The position numbers were made by a program, and so were the translations under genes. From positions 1-64,000 of the IMG/VR virus record IMGVR_UViG_3300008267_000013: a DNA stretch of 64,000 nucleotides; one strand, given 5' to 3'. The notes beneath the pieces are model-generated. The model was not told the origin of the DNA, did no database searches, and saw only the letters and a list, made by a program, of their open reading frames with translations. This document shows positions 17,072 to 64,000 of this stretch, piece by piece (positions within the stretch are counted from its first letter, which is position 1; every line of letters starts with the position of its first letter). Origin of the DNA: a virus.

Positions 17072-18031
17072 ATGCCAAATCTACTAGAGCCAAGAGTAAC
17101 ATACGGACCTTTCGAGTACCAACCTGCATATGATTTTTTTTTAAAACAACAAATGGCTCATTGGCTCTTTATAGAAGTACAGATGGGTGGCGACGTTAAT
17201 GATTGGAAGTTAAACCTATCTGAAACAGATAGACACGTGATTGGAAGCATTCTCAAAGGATTTACACAGACAGAAATCTTTGTTGAGGATTATTGGTCCA
17301 ACAAAGTTGGTAATTGGTTCAAGAAACCTGAAATTCAAATGATGGCAAATACATTTGCCGGATTTGAAAGTATCCATGCTGCTGGATACTCATATCTTGA
17401 AGAATCACTTGGTATTCAAAATTACGAGTCATTTCTACATGACCCAGCCTCAAAAGCTAAGATCGACAGATTGATGAACACCAAGGGCAAAACCAAAAGA
17501 GAGATTGGTCTATCATTAGCAATATTCTCAGGCTTCAACGAAGGCGTAAATCTTTTTAGTTCATTTGCTGTTCTTATGTCATTTTCACAACGCAATATGC
17601 TTAAAGGACTTGGTCAAATTGTTAGCTGGTCCATCAAAGATGAATCATTACATAGTGAAGCTGGATGCTGGTTATTTCGTACATTTATGTCAGAACACCC
17701 AGAACTATGGACAGATGACTTTAAAAAAGAAATTTATGATGCTGCTCGCCTAACAGTTGAACTTGAAGATCAATTTATTGAAACTGCTTTTGCTAAAGGT
17801 GATCTACCAAATCTTTCCAAGCATGACTTAAAAAATTATATTCGTTATCGTGCAAATACTAAACTTCACGATCTTGGACTAAAACAAAATTGGAAGAACA
17901 TTGACAAAACCTCCCTTGAGAGGTTAGAATGGTTTGACGTTCTCTCCAGTGGTGTTGAAATGCAGGACTTTTTTGCACAGAAGGTTTCGGCGTACTCCAA
18001 AGGAATGGCTGATTTTGAGAATGTTTGGTAA
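17072..18031 (+). CDS. nrdB: Ribonucleotide reductase class Ia, beta subunit
   Basis: 319 aa. Diiron ligands are visible in F-E-S-I-H-A-A-G-Y-S, where E-x2-H-x3-Y gives the Glu, His and radical Tyr. Others are in T-E-I-F-V-E-D-Y, F-N-E-G-V-N and K-D-E-S-L-H. The protein holds the tyrosyl radical that starts NDP reduction in NrdA. It is shorter than E. coli NrdB (376 aa) but the catalytic core is complete. SD precedes ATG 17072. It is adjacent to the split nrdA. Confidence 0.93.
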   Translation: MPNLLEPRVTYGPFEYQPAYDFFLKQQMAHWLFIEVQMGGDVNDWKLNLSETDRHVIGSILKGFTQTEIFVEDYWSNKVGNWFKKPEIQMMANTFAGFESIHAAGYSYLEESLGIQNYESFLHDPASKAKIDRLMNTKGKTKREIGLSLAIFSGFNEGVNLFSSFAVLMSFSQRNMLKGLGQIVSWSIKDESLHSEAGCWLFRTFMSEHPELWTDDFKKEIYDAARLTVELEDQFIETAFAKGDLPNLSKHDLKNYIRYRANTKLHDLGLKQNWKNIDKTSLERLEWFDVLSSGVEMQDFFAQKVSAYSKGMADFENVW

Positions 18032-18042
18032 AGGATAAAAAT

Positions 18043-19161
18043 ATGACTCTTGAGGAACTAAAAGAAAAAGGCGAAGCTGGAGAATGGTTAAACTCTGAAG
18101 GGTTTCAAACTTTGTCCAGTGGCTATCTATTAAAAGGGGAAACCCCATTAGATATGTACAAACGTGTAGCTAAATCAGCTGCATCATATTATGATGAACC
18201 ATTACGTTCTCAATTAGAGAAAAGGTTCCTATCATATATTAAAAATAATTGGCTATGCTTGGCTACGCCTGTTGCCTCAAACTGCGGCAGCGACCGTGGA
18301 CTACCTATTTCATGCTATGGAAATTATATGCCAGATAGTATTTCTGGTATTTTTAAAACATATCATGAAGCTGCCATGTTAACAAAAAATGGTGGCGGTG
18401 TTGGAACATATATTGGTGGTATTCGTGCTAGAGGAGCTTCTATTAACGGTAATGGTCAAAGTGAAGGTGTAATACCTTGGTTAAGAGTATTGGAACAAAC
18501 ATTCCAGAGTGTTGGTCAGGGTGGAGTTAGACGAGGAGCTGTAGCAACTTATCTAGATGCTGACCATGGCGATATTGATGAGTTTATTGATATCCGCCGA
18601 CCAACTGGGGATATTTCGAGGCGTTGTCTCTCTAATAATTTCCATCATGCAGTCGTATATTCAGACGATTTTATGAATCGTGCATTAACTGGTGATAAGC
18701 ATGCTCGCGAGGTATGGGAAAAAGGTCTAAAAGCTCGTCTTGAGACTGGAGAACATTATATGATGTTCGGTGATAACGCTAATCGTAACTTACCGGACGG
18801 ATATATTAAAAATGATTTAAAAGTTAAAACAAGCCAGCTTTGCGTAGCTGGTGAGACTTTAATTACTGTATCAAGCAAAGATTTTGGTATAGTGGATTTA
18901 GAAATTAAAGACCTAAAACCATATATGGATAAACATAAAGATCTTTCTGTTTTATCTAACAATCTGGAAAATAGAAAAAATGAATTTAAAAAAGTTAAGG
19001 CATTTGCTCAGACTTCGCCAAAAGCAAAAGTATTAAAAATTACTGACGACAAAACAGGTAAATGTATTAAAGTAACGCCAGAACACAAAGTCTATACCAA
19101 AAATAGAGGATATGTTATGGCTAAAGATCTTAAAGCAGATGATGAATTAGTTTTTGAATAG
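18043..19161 (+). CDS. nrdA: NrdA N-terminal part fused to N-half of a split intein
   Basis: 372 aa from the ATG with SD AAGGAT. An upstream ATG at 18025 overlaps nrdB and is less likely. The first 266 aa are the NrdA N-extein, with P-V-A-S-N-C-G (redox-active Cys) and N-G-G-G-V-G. It lacks an ATP-cone, so overall activity regulation by dATP is probably absent. The last 106 aa are an intein N-fragment ending at a normal stop. NrdA therefore needs protein trans-splicing with the product of 20196-21230. Confidence 0.93.
   Translation: MTLEELKEKGEAGEWLNSEGFQTLSSGYLLKGETPLDMYKRVAKSAASYYDEPLRSQLEKRFLSYIKNNWLCLATPVASNCGSDRGLPISCYGNYMPDSISGIFKTYHEAAMLTKNGGGVGTYIGGIRARGASINGNGQSEGVIPWLRVLEQTFQSVGQGGVRRGAVATYLDADHGDIDEFIDIRRPTGDISRRCLSNNFHHAVVYSDDFMNRALTGDKHAREVWEKGLKARLETGEHYMMFGDNANRNLPDGYIKNDLKVKTSQLCVAGETLITVSSKDFGIVDLEIKDLKPYMDKHKDLSVLSNNLENRKNEFKKVKAFAQTSPKAKVLKITDDKTGKCIKVTPEHKVYTKNRGYVMAKDLKADDELVFE
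18841..19158 (+). mobile_element. Split intein, N-fragment (106 aa)
   Basis: Starts with Cys in C-V-A-G-E-T-L-I-T-V (block A) and contains block B T-P-E-H near residue 82. It ends with a stop after the A-K-D-L-K-A-D-D-E-L-V-F segment. No endonuclease domain is present in the fragment. Confidence 0.92.
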
Positions 19162-19169
19162 ATAAAAAT

Positions 19170-19227
19170 CCAGTAGAGTAATCTCGTTTAGTAACTAATT
19201 ATATTATCGAGATTACTCTACTGGAGG
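19170..19227 (+). promoter_or_regulatory. 17-bp perfect inverted repeat masking the SD of the endonuclease
   Basis: CCAGTAGAGTAATCTCG (19170-19186) is exactly complementary to 19208-19224. The right arm runs into the SD GGAGG (19223-19227). The 21-nt loop contains ACTAATTATA, a possible internal promoter element. Long transcripts would hide the SD, while RNAs started in the loop would not. Confidence 0.75.
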
Positions 19228-19234
19228 TTATACA

Positions 19235-20212
19235 ATGGAATGGAAAATCTATAAAATAACAAATTTGATAAATAATAAAATTTATATAGGTCAGACAAAA
19301 AACTCTATAAATGAAAGATTTAAAGGACATTGTACAGCTGCCAGACAAGGTATAAAATATAGATTTTATTATGCAATAAGAAAACATGGCGAAGAAAATT
19401 TTAAAATAGAACTTCTAGAAATAGCAAATTCAATAGAGGAAGCCTGTGAACTAGAAAAGAACTACATTAAAAAATATCAATCAACTCATCCGAGCATTGG
19501 ATATAACGCTACCAGTGGAGGCACAGGTGGTTGGATGATCGGAAGACTATCTGAAGAAGAACAAAATTTATGGAAAGATAAAGTTTCTAAAGCTAATACA
19601 GGCGAGAACAATTCTACATATTGCGGTACAACTGATGAAGAATTAATAAATTTATTAGTAAAATTTACTGAAAAATACAAATATATATGTGGTTTGCTAC
19701 CGCTGGTAGGGTTTGGGATAGAAAATGGTATAGATGTTCCCAAATCATTTACAAAGTTTAGATTTGATGGGAACTATGAAAATTTAGTTAAAGAAGTTGA
19801 ATTAAGAACTGGTATTAAGGCTGATGCGTATCCAAGAGGTGAAGAAAGAAAAATATCATCATATTATAAAAAACTTTCTTATCAAAAATCGTACAAAAGA
19901 AAACCAAAAATTAAAATAAAATACGAAGACATGATCAAAAACATTAGTAATTCTAAAAAATATGATAAAAATCCGCAATTTTGTGGAACAACCAATGAAA
20001 CACTAATAGAATTAGTAGAAAAATTCTATAAAGAATTTAATAAATTTCCAACACACAAAGAATTAATACTTTATGGGAAACATGAAAATATAAATGTTCC
20101 AACCGGGTTTACAGAAAGTAGATTTGGAGGAAAATTTATAAATTTAATTAAAATTGTAAATTTAAAGTATAATTTAAGCAAACCGGAGGCCGATAATGGC
20201 ACTGATAATTGA
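19235..20212 (+). CDS. GIY-YIG homing endonuclease between the split nrdA halves
   Basis: 325 aa. The N-terminal GIY-YIG domain reads K-I-Y-K-I-T...I-Y-I-G-Q-T, with R-F-K-G-H following. After it come two related repeats beginning with C-G-T-T-(D/N)-E. The second copy is fuller and includes F-P-T-H-K-E-L and F-G-G-K-F. These repeats look like a DNA-recognition module. Its 3' end overlaps the start of the intein C-fragment gene by 17 bp and contains that gene's SD (GGAGG). Confidence 0.9.
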   Translation: MEWKIYKITNLINNKIYIGQTKNSINERFKGHCTAARQGIKYRFYYAIRKHGEENFKIELLEIANSIEEACELEKNYIKKYQSTHPSIGYNATSGGTGGWMIGRLSEEEQNLWKDKVSKANTGENNSTYCGTTDEELINLLVKFTEKYKYICGLLPLVGFGIENGIDVPKSFTKFRFDGNYENLVKEVELRTGIKADAYPRGEERKISSYYKKLSYQKSYKRKPKIKIKYEDMIKNISNSKKYDKNPQFCGTTNETLIELVEKFYKEFNKFPTHKELILYGKHENINVPTGFTESRFGGKFINLIKIVNLKYNLSKPEADNGTDN

Positions 20213-20297
20213 AGAAATGGAAGAAGAAATTCCAGTATACGATATAACGGTGGAAGATAATCACAATTTTTATGCAAATGGCATTCTAGTACATAAC
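20196..20297 (+). mobile_element. Split intein, C-fragment (34 aa)
   Basis: Block F V-Y-D-I-T-V-E-D-N-H-N-F and block G I-L-V-H-N end at the junction with the +1 Cys (20298). Length and motifs are those of known naturally split inteins. Confidence 0.92.
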
Positions 20298-21230
20298 TGT
20301 TCGGAAATCTTTCTCTTCAACGATCAAGATCATACATTTGTTTGTTGCTTATCAAGCGTAAATCTTGCACGATACGATGAGTGGAAAAATGATCCACTAT
20401 TCCTAAAAGACTGTATCTATTTTCTAGATGGAATCATGGAAGAATTTATTCGCAAAGCACGTAAGATTGAAGGATTTGAGAAGGCTGTAAGATTCTCAGA
20501 AAAAAGTCGCGCACTTGGTCTTGGCGCTCTTGGATGGCACACCCTGTTGCAATCAAAACTAATTCCATTTGATTCATATCAAGCAATGATGCTGAATGCA
20601 GAAATCTTCCGCAAGATGGATCGTCTAACACTAGAAGCTTCAAAAGAATTAGCAGTATTAAAAGGGGTACCAGAATGGTGCATGGATACACGTAACAGTC
20701 ACCGATTAGCAATTGCACCAACTGTGTCTAATTCATTAATCTCAGGCGGTGTAAGCCAAGGGGTTGAACCTATTATTGCTAATTATTACGCTCAAAAAAC
20801 TGCAAAAGGTTCTTTTATCAGAAAAAATCCTGCACTTGAAGTACTACTTAAATCAAAAGGTCTAGATAGTTTTGATACATGGCAACAAATAAATGCAGAT
20901 GGCGGCAGTGTAAGAAATGTTAAAGGCTTGAGTGATCTTGAGAAAGAAGTGTTCTTGACCGCAAGAGAGATCAACCAACATACTATTATCAAGCAGGCTG
21001 CACAACGTCAAAAGTTTATTGATCAAGGACAAAGTATCAATCTATTCTTTACAACCCCAGCATCACTAAATTCTGATGACAAGAAGAAACTAGGCAAGTA
21101 CATTCACGAAGTGCATCTAGAGGCCTGGAAACAGGGTCTAAAGAGCCTATACTACCTACGTGGTGAGTCAGTCCTTAAATCAGATAGTGTCTATCGTAGT
21201 AGCGGTGAATGTAAGGCTTGTGAAGGATAA
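20196..21230 (+). CDS. nrdA: Split intein C-fragment fused to NrdA C-terminal part
   Basis: 344 aa. Residues 1-34 are the intein C-fragment, and residues 35-344 are the NrdA C-extein (310 aa). The joined NrdA would be 576 aa, well under E. coli NrdA (761 aa). The +1 Cys of the extein (C-S-E-I) aligns with the thiyl-radical cysteine of class I NrdA (C439 in E. coli). A second active-site Cys follows in C-C-L-S-S-V-N. The Y-Y pair for radical transfer is in S-L-Y-Y-L-R, and a C-terminal C-x2-C (E-C-K-A-C-E-G) handles re-reduction. Splicing is required to build the active site. Confidence 0.93.
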   Translation: MALIIEEMEEEIPVYDITVEDNHNFYANGILVHNCSEIFLFNDQDHTFVCCLSSVNLARYDEWKNDPLFLKDCIYFLDGIMEEFIRKARKIEGFEKAVRFSEKSRALGLGALGWHTLLQSKLIPFDSYQAMMLNAEIFRKMDRLTLEASKELAVLKGVPEWCMDTRNSHRLAIAPTVSNSLISGGVSQGVEPIIANYYAQKTAKGSFIRKNPALEVLLKSKGLDSFDTWQQINADGGSVRNVKGLSDLEKEVFLTAREINQHTIIKQAAQRQKFIDQGQSINLFFTTPASLNSDDKKKLGKYIHEVHLEAWKQGLKSLYYLRGESVLKSDSVYRSSGECKACEG

Positions 21231-50694: not shown

Positions 50695-50723
50695 TTGACT
50701 TGATATAGACTACCATGTAGAAT
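50695..50723 (+). promoter_or_regulatory. Sigma-70 promoter giving a leaderless mRNA
   Basis: TTGACT (50695-50700), 17 bp, TAGAAT (50718-50723). The ATG at 50731 is 7 nt after the -10, exactly where transcription should start. No SD is present. Confidence 0.72.
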
Positions 50724-50730
50724 GTACCCT

Positions 50731-51351
50731 ATGGAAAACAACATCGTTAACGATCCACAAATTAATGATCGACTCCAGCAGCTTCTACAGAAACCATTAA
50801 CTCCCAAGCATTTAAATGTAATAAAATCATTTAGTGATTTCTGGAGTAAGTATCAATATTTAACTATCAAGCAAGTTTCTTTTCTGGACAATATAGAATC
50901 AAGTTATAATGATGACTATAACTCTTGGAGAGCAAACTTCGGAGATGATAAAAAAGAACTACTAAAGATGGCGGTTAACTATTACCAAAATAGTCAGTAT
51001 TTTATGGAGATTGTAAATAATTATTACATGGACAAAAATTACATTCCAACTCGTAGACAATACGAAAGAATGTGTGAGAATAAGTATGTAAAGCGAGCCA
51101 TAGGATATTACAAGTCTAATCCATTATATGAATTGGGCGACATAATTACTCCTAGAGCTCGTTATCTTTATAAAATAAGCGATACTTTAACCGTAGGTAT
51201 AATCAATAAAATTGGTGAACCTTCGTTTCTAAACGGAACCAGATTGTACGATGTAATGTGGTTAGGCGGAACAAAATTTTCTAAAATGTTTGAGAGAGAA
51301 ATAAAAATTTACAGACACCCCAAAAAGGAGAAGAAAGATGGCACAACGTAA
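50731..51351 (+). CDS. Helical protein with C-terminal GDI domain
   Basis: 206 aa. An in-frame ATG at 50722 overlaps the -10 box, so 50731 is preferred. The first 130 residues are helical. Residues about 134-206 start with E-L-G-D-I-I and contain a GDI-type barrel ending in K-I-Y-R-H. It is the only case here of a GDI module fused to another domain. Its mRNA should be leaderless. Overlaps the next gene by 14 bp. Confidence 0.65.
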   Translation: MENNIVNDPQINDRLQQLLQKPLTPKHLNVIKSFSDFWSKYQYLTIKQVSFLDNIESSYNDDYNSWRANFGDDKKELLKMAVNYYQNSQYFMEIVNNYYMDKNYIPTRRQYERMCENKYVKRAIGYYKSNPLYELGDIITPRARYLYKISDTLTVGIINKIGEPSFLNGTRLYDVMWLGGTKFSKMFEREIKIYRHPKKEKKDGTT

Positions 51352-51583
51352 CATTACAGAAGATGGCAAATACTATGTTTCAACTTCTAGTTCTCAGCAA
51401 AACTGGGAGACCAAGGTGTTTATGATTGATAAGGATGGCAAGATGCTCTTTGATGTTGCTCTTGAGGAAAAGAATTATTCCAACGAACACGAGGCTGATG
51501 TTGGTCACAAGAAGGTTCTTGCAAAATGGTGTGGCAGAATCGACGCCGAGGAAGAGTTGGGTATAGGGGAAGGCGGTTATTGA
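51338..51583 (+). CDS. Small protein, paralog of 50088
   Basis: 81 aa with SD AAGGAG. Shares W-E-T-K-V-F and the H-K-K-V-L-A-K-W helix with the 50088 protein. The C-terminus is acidic and Gly-rich. Its TGA overlaps a TTG start of the first array gene. Confidence 0.7.
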   Translation: MAQRNITEDGKYYVSTSSSQQNWETKVFMIDKDGKMLFDVALEEKNYSNEHEADVGHKKVLAKWCGRIDAEEELGIGEGGY

Positions 51584-51765
51584 TTTTGTTTGTTCCCGGT
51601 GATATTGTAGAGAAAAAATATAAACCATTTCGTCTTATAAGGCACTTTATGGTTGTCGAAGGTGAACATCCTTATTATAACTGTTATGATATTGATAGTG
51701 AAAACTTCGTAAAAAATATCCTTCTTTCTAATACATTGTTGTGGAAAGTTGAAAAATTAGCCTAG
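51580..51765 (+). CDS. GDI-family protein 1 of the array (TTG start)
   Basis: 61 aa. P-G-D-I-V-E-K starts the barrel and it ends K-L-A. No ATG fits; the TTG overlaps the upstream TGA as TTGA. SD-like GAAGGCGG is upstream. Confidence 0.6.
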   Translation: MILFVPGDIVEKKYKPFRLIRHFMVVEGEHPYYNCYDIDSENFVKNILLSNTLLWKVEKLA

Positions 51766-51774
51766 GTTTATAAT

Positions 51775-52002
51775 ATGTATAATACAGGTGATATTCTAGA
51801 AAGAATTATAATAAGTAACATAGATAGAATGAATCCTATATTTAGAGATGACAATATACATTTCTTGATAGTTGATAAAAGAGAATATTTTCTAGAAGTA
51901 TCTGGCAAGTGTGCAGTTATTTACACACTTATGTCACTAAAGACCAATCAACATCACACAATCAGTTTGAGAGATACACGTAATTGGAAAAAAGTAGCAT
52001 AA
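51775..52002 (+). CDS. GDI-family protein 2
   Basis: 75 aa. T-G-D-I-L-E-R, then H-F-L-I-V, Y-T-L-M-S-L and the ending W-K-K-V-A. It shows the full family pattern. Confidence 0.7.
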   Translation: MYNTGDILERIIISNIDRMNPIFRDDNIHFLIVDKREYFLEVSGKCAVIYTLMSLKTNQHHTISLRDTRNWKKVA

Positions 52003-52018
52003 TAGGTGACACCATGAG

Positions 52019-52228
52019 ATGGAGCAGGAAGAAAAGATAAACGGAGTTGGCGATATAATAGTAGAATGTTATATGAATAGCGTTCGCGGCGAGCAACATT
52101 ATATTATAATAGATCAAAACTATTATCAATATGAATTACTGCCACTAAATGCAGCCAATAAAGATTATCAATCATCGTTCCTGTTATTAAAAAGTACGGT
52201 TGTCATGTATTATATAAGAGTCGCTTAA
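52019..52228 (+). CDS. GDI-family protein 3
   Basis: 69 aa. V-G-D-I-I-V-E, H-Y-I-I-I, ending I-R-V-A. The stop TAA overlaps the next ATG (TTAATG). Confidence 0.66.
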   Translation: MEQEEKINGVGDIIVECYMNSVRGEQHYIIIDQNYYQYELLPLNAANKDYQSSFLLLKSTVVMYYIRVA

Positions 52229-52617
52229 TGAGATATAACATAGGAGATGTTATAGAAGCAGATTATGTATCGCATAAGCAAATATATTACATTAAAGATA
52301 TAATAGCAGATGAATACATACTAAGAACAATAGATGGTGATTTACAAAGAGATCTTCATTGTCTGCTAACAAATGTTAGCAATATAACGTACAAAAAGGT
52401 TGATATGTCGCTTACTAAAGATATGATGATATCAGTAGATTCAGAAATTCAATATTATAGCAACCAAGAACTAATTACTTATAATATATCATATACTGAA
52501 TTAAACAATAAATATCCTAATTCTTATTTTAAATACAGAGTAGATCGTAGTACAGAAGAGCTATTAACCAGAGGATTAGAACCATCTGATGCCAGTAAAA
52601 GCAGAGGTGATAGTTAA
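52228..52617 (+). CDS. GDI-family protein 4, extended
   Basis: 129 aa. I-G-D-V-I-E-A starts the barrel, which ends near Y-K-K-V at residue 55. A further 70 residues of unknown type follow, perhaps a fusion with a second unit that lost its start. Overlaps the next gene by 29 bp. Confidence 0.62.
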   Translation: MRYNIGDVIEADYVSHKQIYYIKDIIADEYILRTIDGDLQRDLHCLLTNVSNITYKKVDMSLTKDMMISVDSEIQYYSNQELITYNISYTELNNKYPNSYFKYRVDRSTEELLTRGLEPSDASKSRGDS

Positions 52618-52792
52618 TGTAGGTGATATTATTAAAGTAAAGAGTGCTGAAACAGAATTCAGTGGCCTCTACCTAGTATTAGAAATAAAATCAACTCAAG
52701 GAATAAAAATATATAATCTGCAGGATCTAAGATTCCCAGACACATTCTGGACTTTTTTTAGCGATGATGATATATTGGAAATACTGGCGTAA
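52589..52792 (+). CDS. GDI-family protein 5
   Basis: 67 aa. V-G-D-I-I-K-V, L-Y-L-V-L, ending I-L-A. It starts inside the previous gene. Confidence 0.62.
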   Translation: MPVKAEVIVNVGDIIKVKSAETEFSGLYLVLEIKSTQGIKIYNLQDLRFPDTFWTFFSDDDILEILA

Positions 52793-52795
52793 AAA

Positions 52796-53032
52796 ATGAT
52801 GCCTTCACACGATAGATTAAGAGAAGTAAGATACGATGTGGGCGATCTTGTCAAACGTTATAATATGCTTGACTCGGATAAAGAGGCCACATCATGCGTA
52901 TATTTAATACTAGCTGTAAATATCGATGAAGAAGGTTGGGTCTGGTACTACTGCTACAGTTTCGGATCAGGTACATATCGTGAATTTTTGATGGATGATA
53001 ATTCCGCTCGTAAATATGTTAAATTAGCGTAG
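52796..53032 (+). CDS. GDI-family protein 6
   Basis: 78 aa. V-G-D-L-V-K-R, V-Y-L-I-L, Y-Y-C-Y-S and the ending Y-V-K-L-A. ATGATG start 3 bp after the upstream stop. Confidence 0.66.
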   Translation: MMPSHDRLREVRYDVGDLVKRYNMLDSDKEATSCVYLILAVNIDEEGWVWYYCYSFGSGTYREFLMDDNSARKYVKLA

Positions 53033-53044
53033 AAAAGAGGACAT

Positions 53045-53260
53045 ATGCGTAAATTTAAAGATGGTGATAAGGTATCTGTTAAATCGTGTGAAGAATTAGA
53101 GATGCCATGCAGCGTTGAGGGTCTTGATGATTGGATTCCAAAATTAACCTCTTTGGATGGTCGTACTATTTATATGTATAAAGTAACTGGTCGTCACGCA
53201 AAGCGCGGTAATGCAGTATCGGTTCGCGTATCAGAAAGTCAATTAGAACTTTGGAGTTAA
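53045..53260 (+). CDS. Small barrel-like protein in the array
   Basis: 71 aa with SD AGAGG. D-G-D-K-V-S-V replaces G-D-I, and it lacks the K-V-A end. It is more like a KOW/SH3 domain and may be a distant member. Confidence 0.6.
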   Translation: MRKFKDGDKVSVKSCEELEMPCSVEGLDDWIPKLTSLDGRTIYMYKVTGRHAKRGNAVSVRVSESQLELWS

Positions 53261-53261
53261 T

Positions 53262-53447
53262 ATGAAAAGTTTTGAGTTGGGTGATATTGTACATGATTTT
53301 GAATATGACCAATATTATCTAATCACACACATTAAACAATCAGATACATATAAGTACCTGTATTCATTGATGGATTTAGAAGATTCATCAAGAGTTATAG
53401 GGGCATCACTAGCAAATCTTAAAAAATTATACAAGAAGGTAGCATAA
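53262..53447 (+). CDS. GDI-family protein 8
   Basis: 61 aa, one of the shortest complete units. L-G-D-I-V-H-D, Y-Y-L-I-T, ending Y-K-K-V-A, encoded by AAG-AAG-GTA-GCA. Confidence 0.68.
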   Translation: MKSFELGDIVHDFEYDQYYLITHIKQSDTYKYLYSLMDLEDSSRVIGASLANLKKLYKKVA

Positions 53448-53448
53448 A

Positions 53449-53604
53449 ATGAGCTCCGAAAGATGGATAAGATTGATATTATCATCCATAGTTGGAGCAA
53501 CTGCTTATGTAATTATAGCAGTTATATACACGCATTATAAAACTCACGATAAATATACGGTCTATAATAAGTCGCCGCTAACAATAGGGCCGTATAAAAA
53601 ATGA
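53449..53604 (+). CDS. 51-aa single-TM protein
   Basis: ATG 1 bp after the upstream stop. The segment S-I-V-G-A-T-A-Y-V-I-I-A-V-I-Y is a TM helix after a basic start, with a polar C-terminus probably outside the cytoplasm. Its TGA overlaps the next ATG. It is an insertion in the GDI array. Function unknown. Confidence 0.58.
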   Translation: MSSERWIRLILSSIVGATAYVIIAVIYTHYKTHDKYTVYNKSPLTIGPYKK

Positions 53605-53822
53605 GCAACGAGCGAATATTTAAGCCGGGGGATATAATAAAGTATATACCAGACAAAGATAGCAAGATAAAAGAAGCCTTTGAACAGGAACTATATATAG
53701 TTATATCAGCTGGTCCTTATATATTTGAAGAGGGTTTCCAAATGGTTGAAAAAATGCATCTGATATCTGGTGTTATACAGATGCGTCCCATAATGATTAA
53801 TAGATGGGAAATATTGGCTTGA
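53601..53822 (+). CDS. GDI-family protein 9
   Basis: 73 aa. P-G-D-I-I-K-Y, L-Y-I-V-I, ending W-E-I-L-A. Both ends overlap neighbours (ATGA, TTGA). Confidence 0.66.
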   Translation: MSNERIFKPGDIIKYIPDKDSKIKEAFEQELYIVISAGPYIFEEGFQMVEKMHLISGVIQMRPIMINRWEILA

Positions 53823-53995
53823 AGTTTAGAGTAGGTGATATAATAAGAGCAATCAATAAATCAACTGGTATATATGTTCACTTCCTAATTTATAGGATTG
53901 AAAAGTGGCACTATGTAGCTTACTGTATTGAAGATGGTATGCCAAGCGTATCAATCAGTCCAATATACGATAATGATTTTGAAAAGGTTGCTTAG
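53819..53995 (+). CDS. GDI-family protein 10 (TTG start)
   Basis: 58 aa. K-F-R-V-G-D-I-I-R, H-F-L-I-Y, ending F-E-K-V-A. The TTG overlaps the upstream TGA, as at 51580. No closer ATG exists. Confidence 0.62.
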   Translation: MKFRVGDIIRAINKSTGIYVHFLIYRIEKWHYVAYCIEDGMPSVSISPIYDNDFEKVA

Positions 53996-54334: not shown

Positions 54335-54363
54335 TTGACAACAAACATACGTTGACCTATACT
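54335..54363 (+). promoter_or_regulatory. Sigma-70 promoter giving a leaderless mRNA
   Basis: TTGACA (54335-54340), 17 bp, TATACT (54358-54363). The ATG at 54373 is 9 nt after the -10, within 2-3 nt of the expected start of transcription. No SD. Confidence 0.78.
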
Positions 54364-54372
54364 ATCAACACG

Positions 54373-54600
54373 ATGGATACACCACAGGTTGGCGACATAT
54401 GGAAGAACAACTGGTCAAGTAACCTCAACACACATAATTGCGGCGAAACTCACTACCTATTGATAAAGAAGGTAGAGCCCGACAACTCCAAGGATACAAA
54501 GTGGGTAGCATTTTCTTATAAGAGATATAAGGAAGTACTCATCTATATTGATAACTATTCAAATGAGATAGTTACAAATAGTTTCACAAGGGTATCTTGA
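54373..54600 (+). CDS. GDI-family protein 11 (leaderless)
   Basis: 75 aa. V-G-D-I-W-K-N, H-Y-L-L-I, ending T-R-V-S. The longer upstream frame would include the promoter, so this ATG is chosen. Confidence 0.7.
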   Translation: MDTPQVGDIWKNNWSSNLNTHNCGETHYLLIKKVEPDNSKDTKWVAFSYKRYKEVLIYIDNYSNEIVTNSFTRVS

Positions 54601-54601
54601 T

Positions 54602-54784
54602 ATGCTATCATCAACTATAGAACCTGGTGACATCTGGAAGAATGATAACTCACAATTCCATAATATCATTATTGAACCCGACATCGTAAACCCTTGGTGG
54701 ATTACATGGGTTATTGAATTGGGCGAATATAATCTCTATCATAAAGATGATTTTGATATGCGTTGGTGGAGGAAAGTAGCATGA
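54602..54784 (+). CDS. GDI-family protein 12
   Basis: 60 aa. P-G-D-I-W-K-N, H-N-I-I-I, ending W-W-R-K-V-A. The start motif is nearly the same as in protein 11, so they are probable sister copies. The stop overlaps the next ATG. Confidence 0.68.
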   Translation: MLSSTIEPGDIWKNDNSQFHNIIIEPDIVNPWWITWVIELGEYNLYHKDDFDMRWWRKVA

Positions 54785-54984
54785 GTAGCAGAGACGCAAA
54801 GTGGGATGTTGGCGATATTATCAGAGAAGAATGGGGTGACGAATCAAGGCATTTCCTAATAATGAGTGTATGTTTGTGGGAAACAAGTATTGATACTTAT
54901 GAGTGTCGTGTTTTAGAGACAGGACAAACCATGAACATAACTCCACATTATAGTCCACCAAACATGTTGAGAAAAGTCGCATGA
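54781..54984 (+). CDS. GDI-family protein 13
   Basis: 67 aa from the ATGA overlap. V-G-D-I-I-R-E, H-F-L-I-M, Y-E-C-R-V-L-E-T-G, ending L-R-K-V-A. Confidence 0.7.
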   Translation: MSSRDAKWDVGDIIREEWGDESRHFLIMSVCLWETSIDTYECRVLETGQTMNITPHYSPPNMLRKVA

Positions 54985-55205
54985 GGACTCTTAAATTCAG
55001 CATCGGAGATATCATAACACGCGGCAAGCCACACCATGATATGTTCAAAGATAATTGGCGTAAGTTCTATCTTATACATGATATAATCTATGAAGAAGAG
55101 CAAAAAGAATATAGATATTGTTTATACAGTTTCCAAACAGGTTCTTGGAGCGGCTATTTCCCAGCAGGTGAACTTGTAGAACCTTTTCTATTCAAGGTAG
55201 CCTAA
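54981..55205 (+). CDS. GDI-family protein 14
   Basis: 74 aa. I-G-D-I-I-T-R, F-Y-L-I-H, Y-R-Y-C-L-Y-S-F-Q-T-G, ending F-K-V-A. Stop CCTAATG overlaps the next start. Confidence 0.7.
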   Translation: MRTLKFSIGDIITRGKPHHDMFKDNWRKFYLIHDIIYEEEQKEYRYCLYSFQTGSWSGYFPAGELVEPFLFKVA

Positions 55206-55360
55206 TGAATCCACAAGTTGGTGACATATGGAAGATAGGAGATCACTATCATTATCTTGTCTTAGAAGAGAGACTTGACTACTGGGGGGAGAAGCAGTAT
55301 TATATGTACATCCTTGAGAGAGACATGTACGACTGCCTCTCATTAGATTTAATAGAGTGA
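55205..55360 (+). CDS. GDI-family protein 15, shortened by TGA
   Basis: 51 aa. V-G-D-I-W-K-I, H-Y-L-V-L, ending at TGA. The eight codons after the TGA read W-N-G-T-K-V-V-stop in the same frame, like the usual family ending (W-x-x-x-K-V-A). The TGA probably replaced a TGG (Trp) codon. Confidence 0.6.
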   Translation: MNPQVGDIWKIGDHYHYLVLEERLDYWGEKQYYMYILERDMYDCLSLDLIE

Positions 55361-55384
55361 TGGAATGGTACAAAAGTGGTGTAA

Positions 55385-55594
55385 ATGTCTAAACCTCATC
55401 AAGTTGGTGATGTTGTCATGGTTGAAAATGACTGGATTGCTTATGAGAATGGTAGTTTGGTTTACGAAACAGGACAAAATCATTATCTTATACTTGAACG
55501 CTGCGATTATACCTGTACCTATACAACGATTCATCTGCAAAGCGGCAAGCATATCCTTACAAGTATGTTAGATAACGCAACAAAGGTCGCCTAA
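55385..55594 (+). CDS. GDI-family protein 16
   Basis: 69 aa. V-G-D-V-V-M-V, H-Y-L-I-L, ending T-K-V-A encoded by AAG-GTC-GCC before TAATG. Confidence 0.68.
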   Translation: MSKPHQVGDVVMVENDWIAYENGSLVYETGQNHYLILERCDYTCTYTTIHLQSGKHILTSMLDNATKVA

Positions 55595-55830
55595 TGGAAC
55601 TCAAGAATATCCTACTTCTCGATAAAAACAAGAAAGTGTATTATACACATTATGAAGTTGGAGATATTCTTAGACACGAAGCAGAAATTAGTGCTCATTA
55701 TCTGGTAGAAGATATACGCGTAGAAGATAATCTTGGAGTTTACTCGCTTAGAGTTCTTGAAAATAACGATATCTTTTCATGGGACGTAGAAATAGTAGAT
55801 AAAGCCCGCAAAATCAAGAGGGTCGCATGA
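55594..55830 (+). CDS. GDI-family protein 17
   Basis: 78 aa. A longer N-terminal lead precedes V-G-D-I-L-R-H. H-Y-L-V-E, ending K-R-V-A. Stop overlaps the next start. Confidence 0.68.
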   Translation: MELKNILLLDKNKKVYYTHYEVGDILRHEAEISAHYLVEDIRVEDNLGVYSLRVLENNDIFSWDVEIVDKARKIKRVA

Positions 55831-56027
55831 TGGAACACCAATACGAGCCCGGTGATATTCTTGCAGTTGATGAACCTTGGTCCAATGAAACATTTTATTA
55901 CTTGATAGAGGGTGAGCTTGATTCTGTTCATGCGTACATGGAATTAATGTATCCTTACCGCTGTCTAAGTGATGGCAAGACAGGATGGGGTAAATTCAAT
56001 GCGCCTTCAACAAGGAAAGTCGCATGA
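55827..56027 (+). CDS. GDI-family protein 18
   Basis: 66 aa. P-G-D-I-L-A-V, Y-Y-L-I-E, L-S-D-G-K, ending T-R-K-V-A. Confidence 0.68.
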   Translation: MMEHQYEPGDILAVDEPWSNETFYYLIEGELDSVHAYMELMYPYRCLSDGKTGWGKFNAPSTRKVA

Positions 56028-56209
56028 TGAATATGTTCCAAATAGGTGATATAGTAAAATGTACAACTACTAACATGATAGAACACATGCTCATACTTGA
56101 CACACAACCAGACTACTGGTATATTGTCCTGTGTCTAGAATCCGGCTTTACAAAAACACATAAGATGTGGCCGAATCAAATCCCAAGAGTATATATGAAG
56201 GTCGCATGA
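56024..56209 (+). CDS. GDI-family protein 19
   Basis: 61 aa. I-G-D-I-V-K-C, H-M-L-I-L, L-C-L-E-S-G, ending M-K-V-A. Confidence 0.68.
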   Translation: MMNMFQIGDIVKCTTTNMIEHMLILDTQPDYWYIVLCLESGFTKTHKMWPNQIPRVYMKVA

Positions 56210-56412
56210 TGTTTAAAACCAAGTATCAGATTGGCGACATTATCGAGGGTAGTCACATACCTGGCGCAAAAATACACCTGCTAATTGAAAACATTACCTA
56301 TATGGGCAAGAAGCCATTTGAGTATTGTGTACGGAATCTTGAAGAAGATTTGATATATGAAAAGTCAGTAGAAAGAACCGATAAAAGTCTTTATTACAAC
56401 AAGGTTGGCTAG
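56206..56412 (+). CDS. GDI-family protein 20
   Basis: 68 aa from the ATGA overlap. I-G-D-I-I-E-G, H-L-L-I-E, ending N-K-V-G. Its stop TAG runs directly into the promoter of the next unit. Confidence 0.68.
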   Translation: MMFKTKYQIGDIIEGSHIPGAKIHLLIENITYMGKKPFEYCVRNLEEDLIYEKSVERTDKSLYYNKVG

Positions 56413-56413
56413 C

Positions 56414-56442
56414 TTGACAACCCTAACCTCTTGCGCTACTAT
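56414..56442 (+). promoter_or_regulatory. Sigma-70 promoter giving a leaderless mRNA
   Basis: TTGACA (56414-56419), 17 bp, TACTAT (56437-56442), then 6 nt to ATG 56449. No SD. Confidence 0.72.
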
Positions 56443-56448
56443 ACAACC

Positions 56449-56673
56449 ATGACGCCACGATACGAACCCGGCGATATCCTTCACCATTCAGGTATGGAAG
56501 GTATTGAGTTTTATTGTTTGGTGATGGACGTTGAGACCGTATCAAACTGTATTATAAACGGTAACTACGAACATCGTAGAATTTATACTCTTCTTTGTAT
56601 GGATGACGGAGAAGTGTATAGATTCAATACAGCAAACATTGATTGTAGTGTTTATTATAGGAAGGTTGCGTAG
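56449..56673 (+). CDS. GDI-family protein 21 (leaderless)
   Basis: 74 aa. P-G-D-I-L-H-H, F-Y-C-L-V-M, L-C-M-D-D-G-E, ending Y-R-K-V-A. First copy of the tandem duplication. Confidence 0.72.
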   Translation: MTPRYEPGDILHHSGMEGIEFYCLVMDVETVSNCIINGNYEHRRIYTLLCMDDGEVYRFNTANIDCSVYYRKVA

Positions 56674-56674
56674 C

Positions 56675-56703
56675 TTGACAACCATCACTTCTTGAGGCAC
56701 TAT
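56675..56703 (+). promoter_or_regulatory. Sigma-70 promoter giving a leaderless mRNA
   Basis: TTGACA (56675-56680), 17 bp, CACTAT (56698-56703), then 6 nt to ATG 56710. Copy of the element at 56414. Confidence 0.7.
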
Positions 56704-56709
56704 ACAACC

Positions 56710-56934
56710 ATGAAGCCCCGATACGAACCCGGTGACATCCTTTATCATCAAGGCAGCGGCTTTGGTGAATTTTATTGTTTAGTTATGGATATCGAACACA
56801 AGACAAGACCAGATCCAAGAGGTAGAAAGTGGCCTTTTGATGTCTACGTTCTTCTTGGTATGGATGACGGCGAGACTTATACAATAAGTACTCAAAATAT
56901 TGACTGTAGTGTATACTATAAAAAGGTTGCATGA
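56710..56934 (+). CDS. GDI-family protein 22 (leaderless)
   Basis: 74 aa, second copy of the tandem duplication. P-G-D-I-L-Y-H, F-Y-C-L-V-M, L-G-M-D-D-G-E, ending Y-K-K-V-A, then ATGA. Confidence 0.72.
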   Translation: MKPRYEPGDILYHQGSGFGEFYCLVMDIEHKTRPDPRGRKWPFDVYVLLGMDDGETYTISTQNIDCSVYYKKVA

Positions 56935-57137
56935 CAAAGTATCAGATAGGCGATATCATCCGTGTTGAAGTTTCTCACAGAGAAGAACCACTCATCTTCT
57001 TGATTGAAGATATTATAAATGAAAATCGGCGCGATGCCGCCCTATATTGTGTTAGAGATTTAGAATCAAACGAGACAAAGAAAGTGTTTAGCAACACCCT
57101 AGATAAACGCGATCTAACCGTTTGGAAGGTGACCTAA
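56931..57137 (+). CDS. GDI-family protein 23
   Basis: 68 aa. I-G-D-I-I-R-V, I-F-L-I-E, Y-C-V-R-D-L-E, ending W-K-V-T. Resembles protein 20 (56206) over the start and middle. Confidence 0.68.
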   Translation: MTKYQIGDIIRVEVSHREEPLIFLIEDIINENRRDAALYCVRDLESNETKKVFSNTLDKRDLTVWKVT

Positions 57138-57331
57138 TGGAACCTCAAACTGGGGACATATGGGAATACAATTTCGACACACCAGATTATCACTTAACAT
57201 ATAACCTGTTGGTGCTAGGGAGCGGCATCATGTTCAGCAATTATTATCTGTGTCTTATACTAGAAACAGGTAGCATACAAGAGGCAAGTTTCATGCCAAC
57301 ACCCAAAGAAACATACGAGAAGGTTGCATGA
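57137..57331 (+). CDS. GDI-family protein 24, last of the array
   Basis: 64 aa. T-G-D-I-W-E-Y, Y-N-L-L-V, L-I-L-E-T-G, ending Y-E-K-V-A. Its ATGA leads into a frame that stops after two codons, as if the next unit had been deleted. Confidence 0.68.
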   Translation: MEPQTGDIWEYNFDTPDYHLTYNLLVLGSGIMFSNYYLCLILETGSIQEASFMPTPKETYEKVA

Positions 57332-57392
57332 TTTAAAAAACGAATAGGTAGAAGAAGTAGGAGGACGGGGGGGTCACAAAACCAAAGAAGGT

Positions 57393-57402
57393 ACTATTTA
57401 TA
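57393..57402 (+). promoter_or_regulatory. ACTATTTATA motif, possible promoter of the RNA below
   Basis: An exact copy of the motif found at 31483, here in non-coding DNA, directly upstream of the structured region. Confidence 0.4.
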
Positions 57403-57409
57403 TATAGAA

Positions 57410-57695
57410 AACAAAGATAGGTTCCATGCTGAGAAGACGCACGGTGATCACCACAAAAGAAAAGGTGATCCACAGCCAAGCGGACGCATGGACTGTGTCC
57501 ATCTTCAAAGTGCAAACGAACCAGTTGATGGACGCCGGAAGCAGGATCTGAACCCTGAACCGGCTAAAAAGAGAATGAAAAACCCCACAGTCCACAGGGC
57601 GTGGAACCCCTGATAGTTTTCAAGAGGCGGCAATCACCAGGGACAAAAGATTGCTGACCACTTGGTTGGACAGATCAACTGGGGGTTTTGTTATT
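57410..57695 (+). ncRNA. Possible second structured RNA
   Basis: No coding potential. Pairings: GATCACC (57446-57452) with GGTGATC (57464-57470); GTCCATC (57497-57503) with GATGGAC (57527-57533); AAAACCCC (57579-57586) with GGGGTTTT (57682-57689); and GCAATC (57630-57635) with GATTGC (57649-57654). The last helix side ends in GGGGGTTTTGTT, which could terminate. It is distinct in sequence from the RNA at 50335. Confidence 0.45.
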
Positions 57696-57768
57696 AAACT
57701 AAAAGCTGGTTAGGCCCATGGTGCTGATGATGGAGCCGCAAACTAACAAACAAAAAAAGATCCAGCCA

Positions 57769-57882
57769 CCAGTAGAGGTAGGAGGACCAGTCCCAGTCAT
57801 AGAAGTAGAAGATCCTGGAGAGAGGTGAGGTATAGCACTACAAGTAGAGTAGGATAAGCACTAGTGCCAGTAGAGGTAGGAG
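57769..57882 (+). repeat. Purine-rich repeats
   Basis: CCAGTAGAGGTAGGAG occurs exactly at 57769-57784 and 57867-57882. Around them (57740-57975) the + strand is dominated by A and G with many AGTAGAG/GGTAGG variants. No gene is seen. The strand bias could allow triplex or R-loop formation. Confidence 0.7.
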
Positions 57883-58228
57883 TATACCAGGAGGGGAGGG
57901 AGTAGAGGGGAAACAAATAGATCCCATACCCACCCATCCATAAGGTAGAGGGAGTAGGGGGAGGGGTATGACTAGGTAAAGTTCTATAGCAAACCCAGTA
58001 TAATAAAAAGTGGACGAGATGGACCGGCGAAGCGGTCCTGCTCTCCCAGTTGAGGAAGAGGAAAGAATCAGATGCTAGTAAATAAGCATACTGCCCTTAT
58101 ACAATAGGTTGTGGTAATTGAAAAAAAGGTATACAATTGCTTATTATAAGTTATTATCTACTGGTTAAATGTGGCAATTGGTGTCAAAGCGGGGCAAGAA
58201 GTGGCATCGAGTGCCAACACAGCTTTAG

Positions 58229-58411
58229 CCCTTATTTTATAGGGTTTTCGAACAAGCCCATCCGGAAACCCCTTATTTTAAGCTAGATTGTGATAAATTT
58301 TATTTTTATAACATGGATCCCCTATAGATTAAGACATAATAGAATAGCCCCTTCACCATTAAGCCTAAAATAAGGCAAAACGTGATTTCACAAAATGCCT
58401 TAAAATAAGGC
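58229..58411. repeat. Four iteron-like palindromes plus AT-rich flank
   Basis: Related imperfect palindromes at 58229-58244 (CCCTTATTTTATAGGG), 58271-58282 (CCTTATTTTAAG), 58363-58376 (GCCTAAAATAAGGC) and 58397-58411 (GCCTTAAAATAAGGC). An AT-rich stretch follows at 58431-58464. This could be a replication origin, or binding sites for a repressor. Confidence 0.55.
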
Positions 58412-58555
58412 ACTTCCGAATATTAGACGTATATGTTGAATATATGATAAATATATATTATATGCGGCACCCCTACTCTAATAAATTTAGTATACCACCG
58501 ATGTTGGCAGGTGTCCAGTAGCGTCTATTCAATAGATATGGAAAAAGGGTAAAGG

Positions 58556-58589
58556 GTGGGGGCTAGCCGGGTCAGTAGTCCTTTTTTTT
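58556..58589 (+). terminator. Possible terminator with GGCTAGCC core
   Basis: A GGGGGCTAGCCGGG hairpin is followed about 13 nt later by eight T on the + strand. It is the + strand counterpart of the CTAG terminators of the minus-strand block. Confidence 0.5.
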
Positions 58590-58604
58590 GTTAGATAGGG
58601 CAGG

Positions 58605-58662
58605 AAGAAAAAAGGATATAGCAGGGGCCTAGCCCCCTCCGCTCCCCCCTTTATTAACAGGG
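58605..58662 (-). terminator. Double-hairpin terminator after the MoxR gene
   Basis: On the minus strand: CTCCCC...GGGGGAG hairpin with an AATAAA loop, then GGGG-CTAG-GCCCC, then about 9 nt and six T. Same design as at 59896, 61204 and 62857. Confidence 0.7.
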
Positions 58663-58685
58663 GAGGGAAGGCTTGACTCGCGGTG

Positions 58686-61910: not shown

Positions 61911-62102
61911 CTAAGCAGCTATATAGAACGGATTGTCGGGTAGGTCAAGTCCAAAAGGGCTTGTGTAGGTTGAATACGTCCCATCGTTCAATACATAGAT
62001 ATGTAGCTGGTGGACATCGTTTGGATATACCTTATCCTCATAGATTAACCAGTATGTCCCATCATGCTTTCTACATAGGATATCACCAACTTGGACCATC
62101 AT
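61911..62102 (-). CDS. GDI-family protein, minus strand 1
   Basis: 63 aa. V-G-D-I-L-C-R, Y-W-L-I-Y, Y-V-L-N-D-G, ending Y-I-A-A. The ATGATG overlaps the stop of the upstream gene. Confidence 0.68.
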   Translation of the reverse strand: MMVQVGDILCRKHDGTYWLIYEDKVYPNDVHQLHIYVLNDGTYSTYTSPFGLDLPDNPFYIAA

Positions 62103-62434
62103 GCCTTGCCCTTGTGGTTAGCTACACCAGAAAAGGTTGCCACAGTTTCGAACTTGATACCAGTTTCCTTGGCACGATATGCCAATTGACAGTTCTTACC
62201 TGTATTCAGGCCGCTATTAGCCGCCCAATAACGGAGGTAGTCTTTTCTATCATCCTGTGATTGGAACCGCAAGATCTGGACTTGGGCCTGCTTACCCTCT
62301 CCAGAAGAGATACCAGCATAACGAACAGTAGACTCCTCAGAACAAATTTCACAATGGGTGGAGAGGCCACCAGCACGACGCTTGGCAGGCGAACGATGAT
62401 CAAACTGTTCGCCGCACACTTGACAGGTTCTCAT
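62099..62434 (-). CDS. Zinc-finger protein, unknown
   Basis: 111 aa from the ATG with SD GGAGG; a GTG 15 bp upstream overlaps that SD. C-Q-V-C-G near the start and H-C-E-I-C near residue 30 form a zinc ribbon. The C-terminal part contains Y-L-R-Y-W-A-A-N-S-G-L-N. Ends K-G-K-A, with AAGG again as SD for the next gene. Confidence 0.68.
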   Translation of the reverse strand: MRTCQVCGEQFDHRSPAKRRAGGLSTHCEICSEESTVRYAGISSGEGKQAQVQILRFQSQDDRKDYLRYWAANSGLNTGKNCQLAYRAKETGIKFETVATFSGVANHKGKA

Positions 62435-62622
62435 GCTAACTTCCTCCACTTAATTCTTTCAAACTGATTATCCAAGTCCATGAACCAATCCCCAACCTCA
62501 CCATCTTCAAGTTTCAAGCACAGATGGTAATCGAGATCATCGATATAGTCAAGCACAAGCAGGGTGGCAGTTCCATACTGGGGATAACTATATTCCCAGA
62601 TGTCACCAATGTTGACAGTCAT
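62431..62622 (-). CDS. GDI-family protein, minus strand 2
   Basis: 63 aa. I-G-D-I-W-E-Y, T-L-L-V-L, L-K-L-E-D-G, ending W-R-K-L-A. Closest in start to proteins 11, 12 and 24 of the array. Confidence 0.7.
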   Translation of the reverse strand: MTVNIGDIWEYSYPQYGTATLLVLDYIDDLDYHLCLKLEDGEVGDWFMDLDNQFERIKWRKLA

Positions 62623-62807
62623 GCCAGCACCTTAAACTCTGCCATGCCAAACTGGTATCTAACGTTTCTACCATTAGTCAGCGAGATAGTATCGTAAATA
62701 TATCCATCTACATCCTTATCAAGCCTGACAATAAGAAAAATATTATCGTCTCTATCCCAATCGTACTGGACAATATCCCCGACATGGCACAGCGGTTCGT
62801 TGCTCAT
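62619..62807 (-). CDS. GDI-family protein, minus strand 3 (leaderless)
   Basis: 62 aa. V-G-D-I-V-Q-Y, I-F-L-I-V, ending F-K-V-L-A. Six nt separate its ATG from the -10 box, so the mRNA should be leaderless. Confidence 0.72.
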   Translation of the reverse strand: MSNEPLCHVGDIVQYDWDRDDNIFLIVRLDKDVDGYIYDTISLTNGRNVRYQFGMAEFKVLA

Positions 62808-63768: not shown

Positions 63769-64000
63769 CTTACCACTTCAGCTTTCGCTGCCATCTTTCG
63801 ATGTTTGTGGTCTGGACTATGCCTTCACCTTTTAATCTTTCGATCAGTCAGGTGGGTGCCGTCTAGTCTCTACACGTTCTAGATATTTCTATCTAGCTTC
63901 GCTCGGCGTTGCCAGTTAAGGGTTCACCGAATTTGACACCATTCAGATAGAGGATTTCGCCTCTACTGCTCAATTAAATAAGTCAACTGTGTATGCCATT
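63769..64000 (-). other. Group I intron in tRNA-Leu(UAA), 3' part
   Basis: On the minus strand the conserved core elements are readable: P/Q near 63917-63901 (CTTAACTGGCAACGCCGAGC), R near 63875-63855 (GTGTAGAGACTAGAC), and S near 63823-63814 (GGCATAGTCC). Two GAAA tetraloop hairpins follow, and the intron ends with G at 63769. The position is the same as that of the cyanobacterial and plastid tRNA-Leu(UAA) introns. No ORF inside the visible part. Confidence 0.9.

Follow-up and report, generated by a model that had tools for sequence, protein, structure and literature searches.

C-terminal codons in an array of small phage genes double as ribosome-binding sites of the next gene

INTRODUCTION

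Where does the ribosome-binding site (RBS) of a gene lie when that gene touches or overlaps its predecessor, and how far can it shape the protein end with which it shares its bases? This question is raised by an array of about 24 small, divergent paralogs of a single family, located on the plus strand at 51.57–57.33 kb of IMG/VR virus record IMGVR_UViG_3300008267_000013, an 87.8-kb record of an uncultured phage whose positions 1 to 64,000 are the stretch analysed here (64,000 nt, the window). The units are 60–80 amino acids long with pairwise identities of mostly 15–30%; they carry an N-terminal V-G-D-I and end mostly in [K/R][V/L][A/S/T/G], typically [K/R]-V-A or similar. Neighbouring genes directly abut or share 1 or 4 nt (TAATG, ATGATG, ATGA), and four further units of the family are found on the minus strand at 61.9–66.1 kb of the record. 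The original prediction, made for 54602–57331, held that the codons of the K-V-A ending double as the RBS of the next gene, that this need may keep the protein end conserved, and that the shared junction would be a natural point of recombination.

Shine–Dalgarno sequences (SDs) inside upstream genes, overlaps of −4 and −1 and effects on synonymous codons are all established (review PMC12548453; PMC2784483), the −4 and −1 spacings being the commonest couplings, and a passage of PMC2784483 cites Eyre-Walker 1996 for such codon effects.

RESULTS

Synonymous codon choice at coupled ends

With the neighbouring AAA ATPase gene as query, 72 related loci were obtained, two of which hold K-V-A-type arrays, and a search for the junction pattern added two more phages, giving five uncultured phages including that of the window and 113 usable units. 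Junctions were classified from sequence, with a handful of automatic assignments corrected by hand, as TAATG (31), ATGATG (10), ATGA (21), other coupled (25) and uncoupled (26). Phages C and D were found through the AAGG pattern and their K codons are possibly biased, for which reason K-codon counts should lean on phages A, B and the window.

In 300 recodings, synonymous codons for the seven C-terminal positions were drawn at random according to the codon usage of the arrays, and SD tetramers and the pairing energy with the anti-SD were scored over the 16 nt preceding the next start. At coupled junctions an SD tetramer was present in 51/70 cases against 22.1 ± 3.3 expected, a count reached by no recoding among the 300, and the pairing energy was −5.33 kcal/mol against an expected −3.05 ± 0.21 (n = 70), whereas uncoupled ends showed no bias (5/26 against 3.1 ± 1.3). 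The test was positive in each of the five phages separately, including A, B and the window, the window alone having SD tetramers at 10 of 12 junctions (5.3 ± 1.6 expected, p = 0.0025). Thus, the C-terminal codons double as the RBS of the next gene, as predicted. The distance from stop to start lies within about −8 to +3 nt, and the upstream codons hold an SD beyond the expectation from codon usage; on these two counts the junctions would belong among translationally coupled gene pairs whose SD lies in the upstream open reading frame.

Similar junction DNA could also stem from recent tandem duplication or gene conversion and not from RBS selection, and the adjacent units starting at 56449 and 56710 are indeed 58% identical and share a promoter region. 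However, most units are 15–30% identical, with saturated synonymous sites, and the uncoupled ends of the same arrays lack the bias, so that we regard this explanation as very improbable.

Residues that slide with the overlap and residues that do not

If the RBS pulls residues into the protein end, a purine-coded residue should stay at a constant distance from the next start and not from its own stop. K, R or E stands at position −3 in 93% of TAATG and ATGATG units and in 43% of ATGA units, while at position −4 the figures are 29% and 86%, which holds the purine-coded residue about 11–8 nt upstream of the next start. A slide as extreme as this arose in none of 20,000 label shuffles, and in none of 5,000 when shuffling was stratified by phage. 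ATGATG junctions share the residue pattern of the TAATG class, which suggests the second ATG as the true start.

No slide is seen for the hydrophobic residue at −2 or for the terminal Ala. Ala closes 80 of the 113 units, and 15 of the 26 uncoupled ones; the residues at −2 and −1 are therefore not explained by the RBS. The proposal that the RBS keeps the protein end was thus half right, in that the RBS shapes the K of K-V-A, tracked by K/R/E at −3 or −4, and not the whole ending, since hydrophobic-Ala at −2/−1 is common without a coupled gene.

The AF2 model of unit 56206–56409 is a confident SH3-like barrel (pLDDT 94) with a bridge at residues 65–66, just before V-G, and in the predicted models the units form small five-strand barrels closed by the C-terminal strand. 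VIA matches of these models are Tudor, KOW, CarD and TraI domains (Z 6.5–7.9, root-mean-square deviation about 2–3 Å over 55–65 residues), and no Foldseek match fell below E = 0.001. The units thus share a predicted fold with SH3-like barrels (Tudor, KOW, CarD-N and the TraI translocation-signal domain) but have no sequence family match: neither Pfam nor PHROGs holds a family for them, and single-unit searches found no relatives for 56449–56670 in viral_contigs or for 56206–56409 and a unit of a second array type (below) in INPHARED. The likeness implies a fold and not a function. Klebsiella phage KP8, which came up in a viral fold search, lists no such array in its annotation table, the annotation alone having been compared.

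Alternatively, K-V-A might be conserved at the protein level alone, as a closing strand or C-terminal signal, with AAGG a by-product of Lys-Val codons. K-V-A or hydrophobic-Ala does persist with no coupled gene following (ends 57331, 53995, 56412 and 56673, and 15/26 uncoupled units overall), and the ending is part of the predicted barrel. Yet the SD codon bias is confined to coupled ends, K/R/E moves between −3 and −4 with the overlap, and the GAG:GAA contrast of the distant relatives described below points the same way. Protein-level conservation is contradicted for the codons and for K/R/E and is the better account of V-A; as an explanation of the whole we consider it improbable. Slightly less probable still is that the terminal hydrophobic-Ala is a ClpXP-type degradation signal making the products short-lived early proteins. 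Ala ends 80/113 units, and the penultimate V, I, L or Y resembles the -LAA and -LVA endings of ssrA tags, but the usual residue at −3 is K, R or F and not L, and distant relatives end in ESR, VIA or VVK.

The junction motif in the window

The window contains 18 copies of the motif AAGGTNGC, against 5.1 ± 2.2 in shuffles, and 8 of them lie at array ends at 53.4–57.3 kb; AAGGTNGCNTRATG occurs three times against 0.01 expected. The spacing to the next start is as predicted, 4 nt for the ATGA form and 7 nt for CTAATG. That the motif marks many junctions was overstated, although its presence is real and non-random: among the 12 units of 54602–57331 it is exact at four coupled junctions (ends 55205, 55594, 56209 and 56934) and close at 57137 (AAGGTGACCTAATG), and five junctions deviate, namely AAAGTAGC, AAAGTCGC (twice), AGGGTCGC and end 55360, where K-V-A is missing. 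SDs are also used by non-array genes of the window (28/37).

Several observations weigh against the RBS reading. Four uncoupled ends of the window (53995, 56412, 56673 and 57331) retain AAGGTT within AAG-GTT-G(C/G)N. At 56412 and 56673 AAGGTTG is present, yet the next gene starts 36 nt on behind its own TTGACA-17-(T/C)ACTAT; the gene after 53995 is served by a separate AAGGAGG; and at 57331 stands AAGGTTGCATGA, whose ATG opens a frame of only two codons. The motif was thus not lost from the last unit or from units before separately promoted genes. Neither was AAG enriched at the C-terminal Lys in the window alone, where it encodes 11/17 C-terminal and 43/86 interior Lys (p = 0.30) and C-terminal Lys at 7/10 coupled and 4/7 uncoupled ends (p = 0.64); read in isolation, the window thus seemed to refute the idea. 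Some coupled junctions have no clear SD, such as those before 52228, 52796 and 54981. Moreover, the slide comes mainly from phage C (G009), to which B and the window add little, and the units are paralogs, so that tails may share descent. Finally, Ala is somewhat commoner at coupled than at uncoupled ends (53/62 against 15/26, p = 0.01), so that its attribution to the protein is tentative.

A dual-coded junction in distant relatives

A second array type was found at loci with 50–60% ATPase identity. Its junction reads ..TTGGAGGTNATCAGTGAAAGTCGGTGATTTGGT, in which frame A gives L-E-V-I-S-E-S-R-stop and frame B, from GTG (or ATG), gives V/M-K-V-G-D-L-V, and over this 14-nt overlap the M-K-V-G-D codons of the next gene are read as the upstream tail E-S-R-stop. 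Different codons in the next gene produce different tails (ESR from GTC or GTA, ESW from GTT and ESG from GTG), as do different residues (ASR from M-Q and ENR from M-K-I); the overlap is true dual coding. ESR-type tails were found in 369/395 new units with the 14-nt overlap against 12/151 without a coupled gene, and in 0/35 units with 4- or 1-nt overlaps.

The L-E-V-I-S codons contain GGAGGT, in which the Glu of L-E-V makes GGAGG. This Glu is encoded by GAG and GAA in a ratio of 205:6 at overlaps and 21:21 at uncoupled ends, and among 781 units outside the first set the contrast was replicated at 294:6 against 28:13 (p = 3e-9), which independently supports the double use of C-terminal codons. 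In an AF2 model of this type (pLDDT 91) the last strand covers residues 62–66, L-E-V-L-S, and E-S-R lies outside it. Profile comparison with hhalign joined the two array types through the N-terminal motif (probability 89), and judged from these profiles they likely share descent. ESR-type junctions also occur at 7480–7870 of L268, a contig labelled as WOR-3 bacterial chromosome (metagenome-assembled genome), which is possibly a phage contig or prophage.

Exchange of units at the junction in distant relatives

When orthologous units of the distant type at 80–95% identity were compared, the next unit was the same in 12 and different in 80 comparisons, whereas flanking larger genes at the same identity keep their neighbour in 126/170. 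Over all loci, unit pairs of at least 80% identity were followed by unlike units in 119 cases and by like units in 14. DNA identity is about 0.85 in the unit, rises to 0.92–1.0 over its final 15 nt and is down to the chance level (0.25) from 10 nt beyond the stop onwards, with apparent breakpoints 1–11 nt past the stop (5–95%). Of the homology tracts, 78% and 74% terminate at a junction, against 6% and 2% that terminate within a unit; the conserved motif adds a few bases to these tracts, and the exact crossover within it is beyond resolution. The junction is thereby clearly supported as a shuffling point in the distant relatives, with breakpoints near base resolution. For the window's own array the predicted recombination point is compatible with the data: homologous K-V-A-type units likewise mostly have unlike neighbours and are too diverged for breakpoint mapping, IMG/VR scans returned no close relatives of the window phage, and a search with the array-side gene 50722–51348 gave one weak locus.

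A tyrosine recombinase (PF00589), such as would act on the junctions of an integron-type gene cassette array, was not matched in 9 viral records including that of the window, records that may be fragments, and a search for RecT was negative. A UvsX/RecA-like recombinase gene is present at 8195–9136, and the exchange would probably proceed by homologous recombination. At 3809–4025 of locus L063 lies a unit whose N-terminal motif occurs twice in tandem (VKVGDLVRMKVGDLVRMWDE), possibly the trace of an unequal exchange at the junction.

Features of the window

Coordinates are collected in Table 1. In unit 52228–52617 the closing strand is retained although it is not the protein end, and a 70-residue extension follows it. 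The frame at 55205–55385 reads past a premature TGA as WNGTKVV-TAA-ATG, so that a former K-V-V junction is still visible. Promoter-like TTGACA-17-hexamers stand at 54335–54372, 56414–56448 and 56675–56709, with the −10 ending 6–9 nt before an ATG; in 2/3 of these cases there is no SD and transcripts would be leaderless or nearly so, as for unit 54373–54600, whose ATG lies 9 nt after the −10 without an SD.

Elsewhere, the window holds a DnaB-like helicase with a Hint/LAGLIDADG intein (13895–16318), a ribonucleotide reductase frame (18025–21230) apparently split by an intein-like segment with a GIY-YIG-like gene (19235–20212), and, on the minus strand at 63789–63990, a Group I intron (Rfam RF00028, 51.4 bits) adjoining an HNH-like gene. 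Between the converging plus- and minus-strand gene sets, 57340–58680 (about 1.3 kb) is without a clear gene and has purine-rich, GTAG/AGTA-rich stretches.

Table 1. Array units and associated features of the window
Feature	Coordinates	Strand	Remarks
Array, left part	51580..53995	+	unit ends 51765 KLA, 52002 KVA, 52228 RVA, 52792 ILA
Array, left part (continued)		+	unit ends 53032 KLA, 53447 KVA, 53822 ILA, 53995 KVA
Non-family small genes interspersed in left part	53045-53260, 53449-53604		
Unit with C-terminal extension	52228..52617	+	barrel runs on past ...YKKVD
Array unit	54373..54600	+	first after TTGACA-17-TATACT promoter-like sequence
Array unit	54602..54784	+	end R-K-V-A; ATGA junction with GGAGGAAAGTAGCATG
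Array unit	54781..54984	+	end R-K-V-A (AGAAAAGTCGCATGA)
Array unit	54981..55205	+	end F-K-V-A; junction AAGGTAGCCTAATG
Array unit	55205..55360	+	end LIE at TGA
Array unit	55385..55594	+	end T-K-V-A; junction AAGGTCGCCTAATG
Array unit	55594..55830	+	end K-R-V-A; junction GAGGGTCGCATGATG
Array unit	55827..56027	+	end R-K-V-A; junction AAGGAAAGTCGCATGATG
Array unit	56024..56209	+	end M-K-V-A; junction AAGGTCGCATGATG
Array unit	56206..56412	+	end N-K-V-G (AAG GTT GGC TAG); next start 36 nt on
Promoter-like TTGACA-17-TACTAT	56414..56448	+	ends 6 nt before next ATG; near copy 56675-56709
Array unit	56449..56673	+	end R-K-V-A (AAG GTT GCG TAG); uncoupled
Array unit	56710..56934	+	end K-K-V-A; junction AAGGTTGCATGA
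Array unit	56931..57137	+	end W-K-V-T; junction AAGGTGACCTAATG
Last array unit	57137..57331	+	end E-K-V-A (AAG GTT GCA TGA); no gene after
Minus-strand unit	61911..62102	-	end Y-I-A-A; next gene with own GGAGG after stop
Two coupled minus-strand units	62431..62807	-	ends K-V-L-A and R-K-L-A; ATGA junctions

DISCUSSION

The explanation that we consider very probable as a whole combines SD-driven choice of codons and residues with dual coding and shuffling at the junction in relatives. The array would be a polycistronic set of small SH3-like barrel proteins whose genes abut or share 1 or 4 nt, and as there is no room between them, each SD lies inside the C-terminal codons of the preceding gene, roughly at −11 to −8 relative to the start that it serves. 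Selection on this element picks AAG, AGG and GAG and pulls K, R or E into position −3 (TAATG) or −4 (ATGA). The following hydrophobic residue and Ala would be part of the strand that closes the barrel, or of the chain end, and would be kept for the protein's sake. Ribosomes would then initiate at the junction ATGs in coupling with termination upstream, as the arrangement of the sequence suggests. In the distant relatives the arrangement is tighter, with GGAGGT inside L-E-V-I-S, the next start and N-terminus read in another frame as E-S-R-stop, and the repeated motif serving as the place where units recombine.

An SD within the last codons of the upstream gene is what these junctions have in common with known translational coupling (PMC12548453; PMC2784483), but here the constraint repeats over dozens of paralogs and is visible as residues sliding with the overlap type. 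In Cluster K mycobacteriophages, Start-Associated Sequences are described as a 13-bp motif at the RBS position before genes of many families (PMC3203893); there too, a short element built around an SD recurs just ahead of numerous starts of a single genome. In the present arrays the motif is part of the genes themselves, all of one paralogous family, and in relatives also encodes the next N-terminus. No match to the Cluster K consensus GGGATAGGAGCCC was obtained when up to 2 mismatches were allowed.

Module-boundary sequences of mosaic phages place recombination joints at gene boundaries. In contrast, one repeated motif here serves every unit, so that any unit could join any other while stop, RBS, start and frame stay intact. 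The open-access literature, which omits most subscription papers, yielded no description of such arrays, and the residue-level signature, the array-wide dual-coded junction and its use as exchange point appear to be new.

Whether one junction serves as closing strand, as SD and start of the next gene (with its N-terminus in relatives) and as short repeated homology for recombination all at once is, in our estimate, evenly balanced. If so, any unit would be exchangeable with expression and frame intact, and the array would be an integrase-free cassette system that diversifies small phage proteins. For annotation, E-S-R-like tails look like a conserved motif in alignments but are by-products of the next gene. 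More than a thousand units form a natural series of replicates in which the need for an RBS is written into protein ends, residues shifting by one codon to hold the RBS in position, and the arrangement offers phages a compact route to shuffle small genes without breaking their expression.

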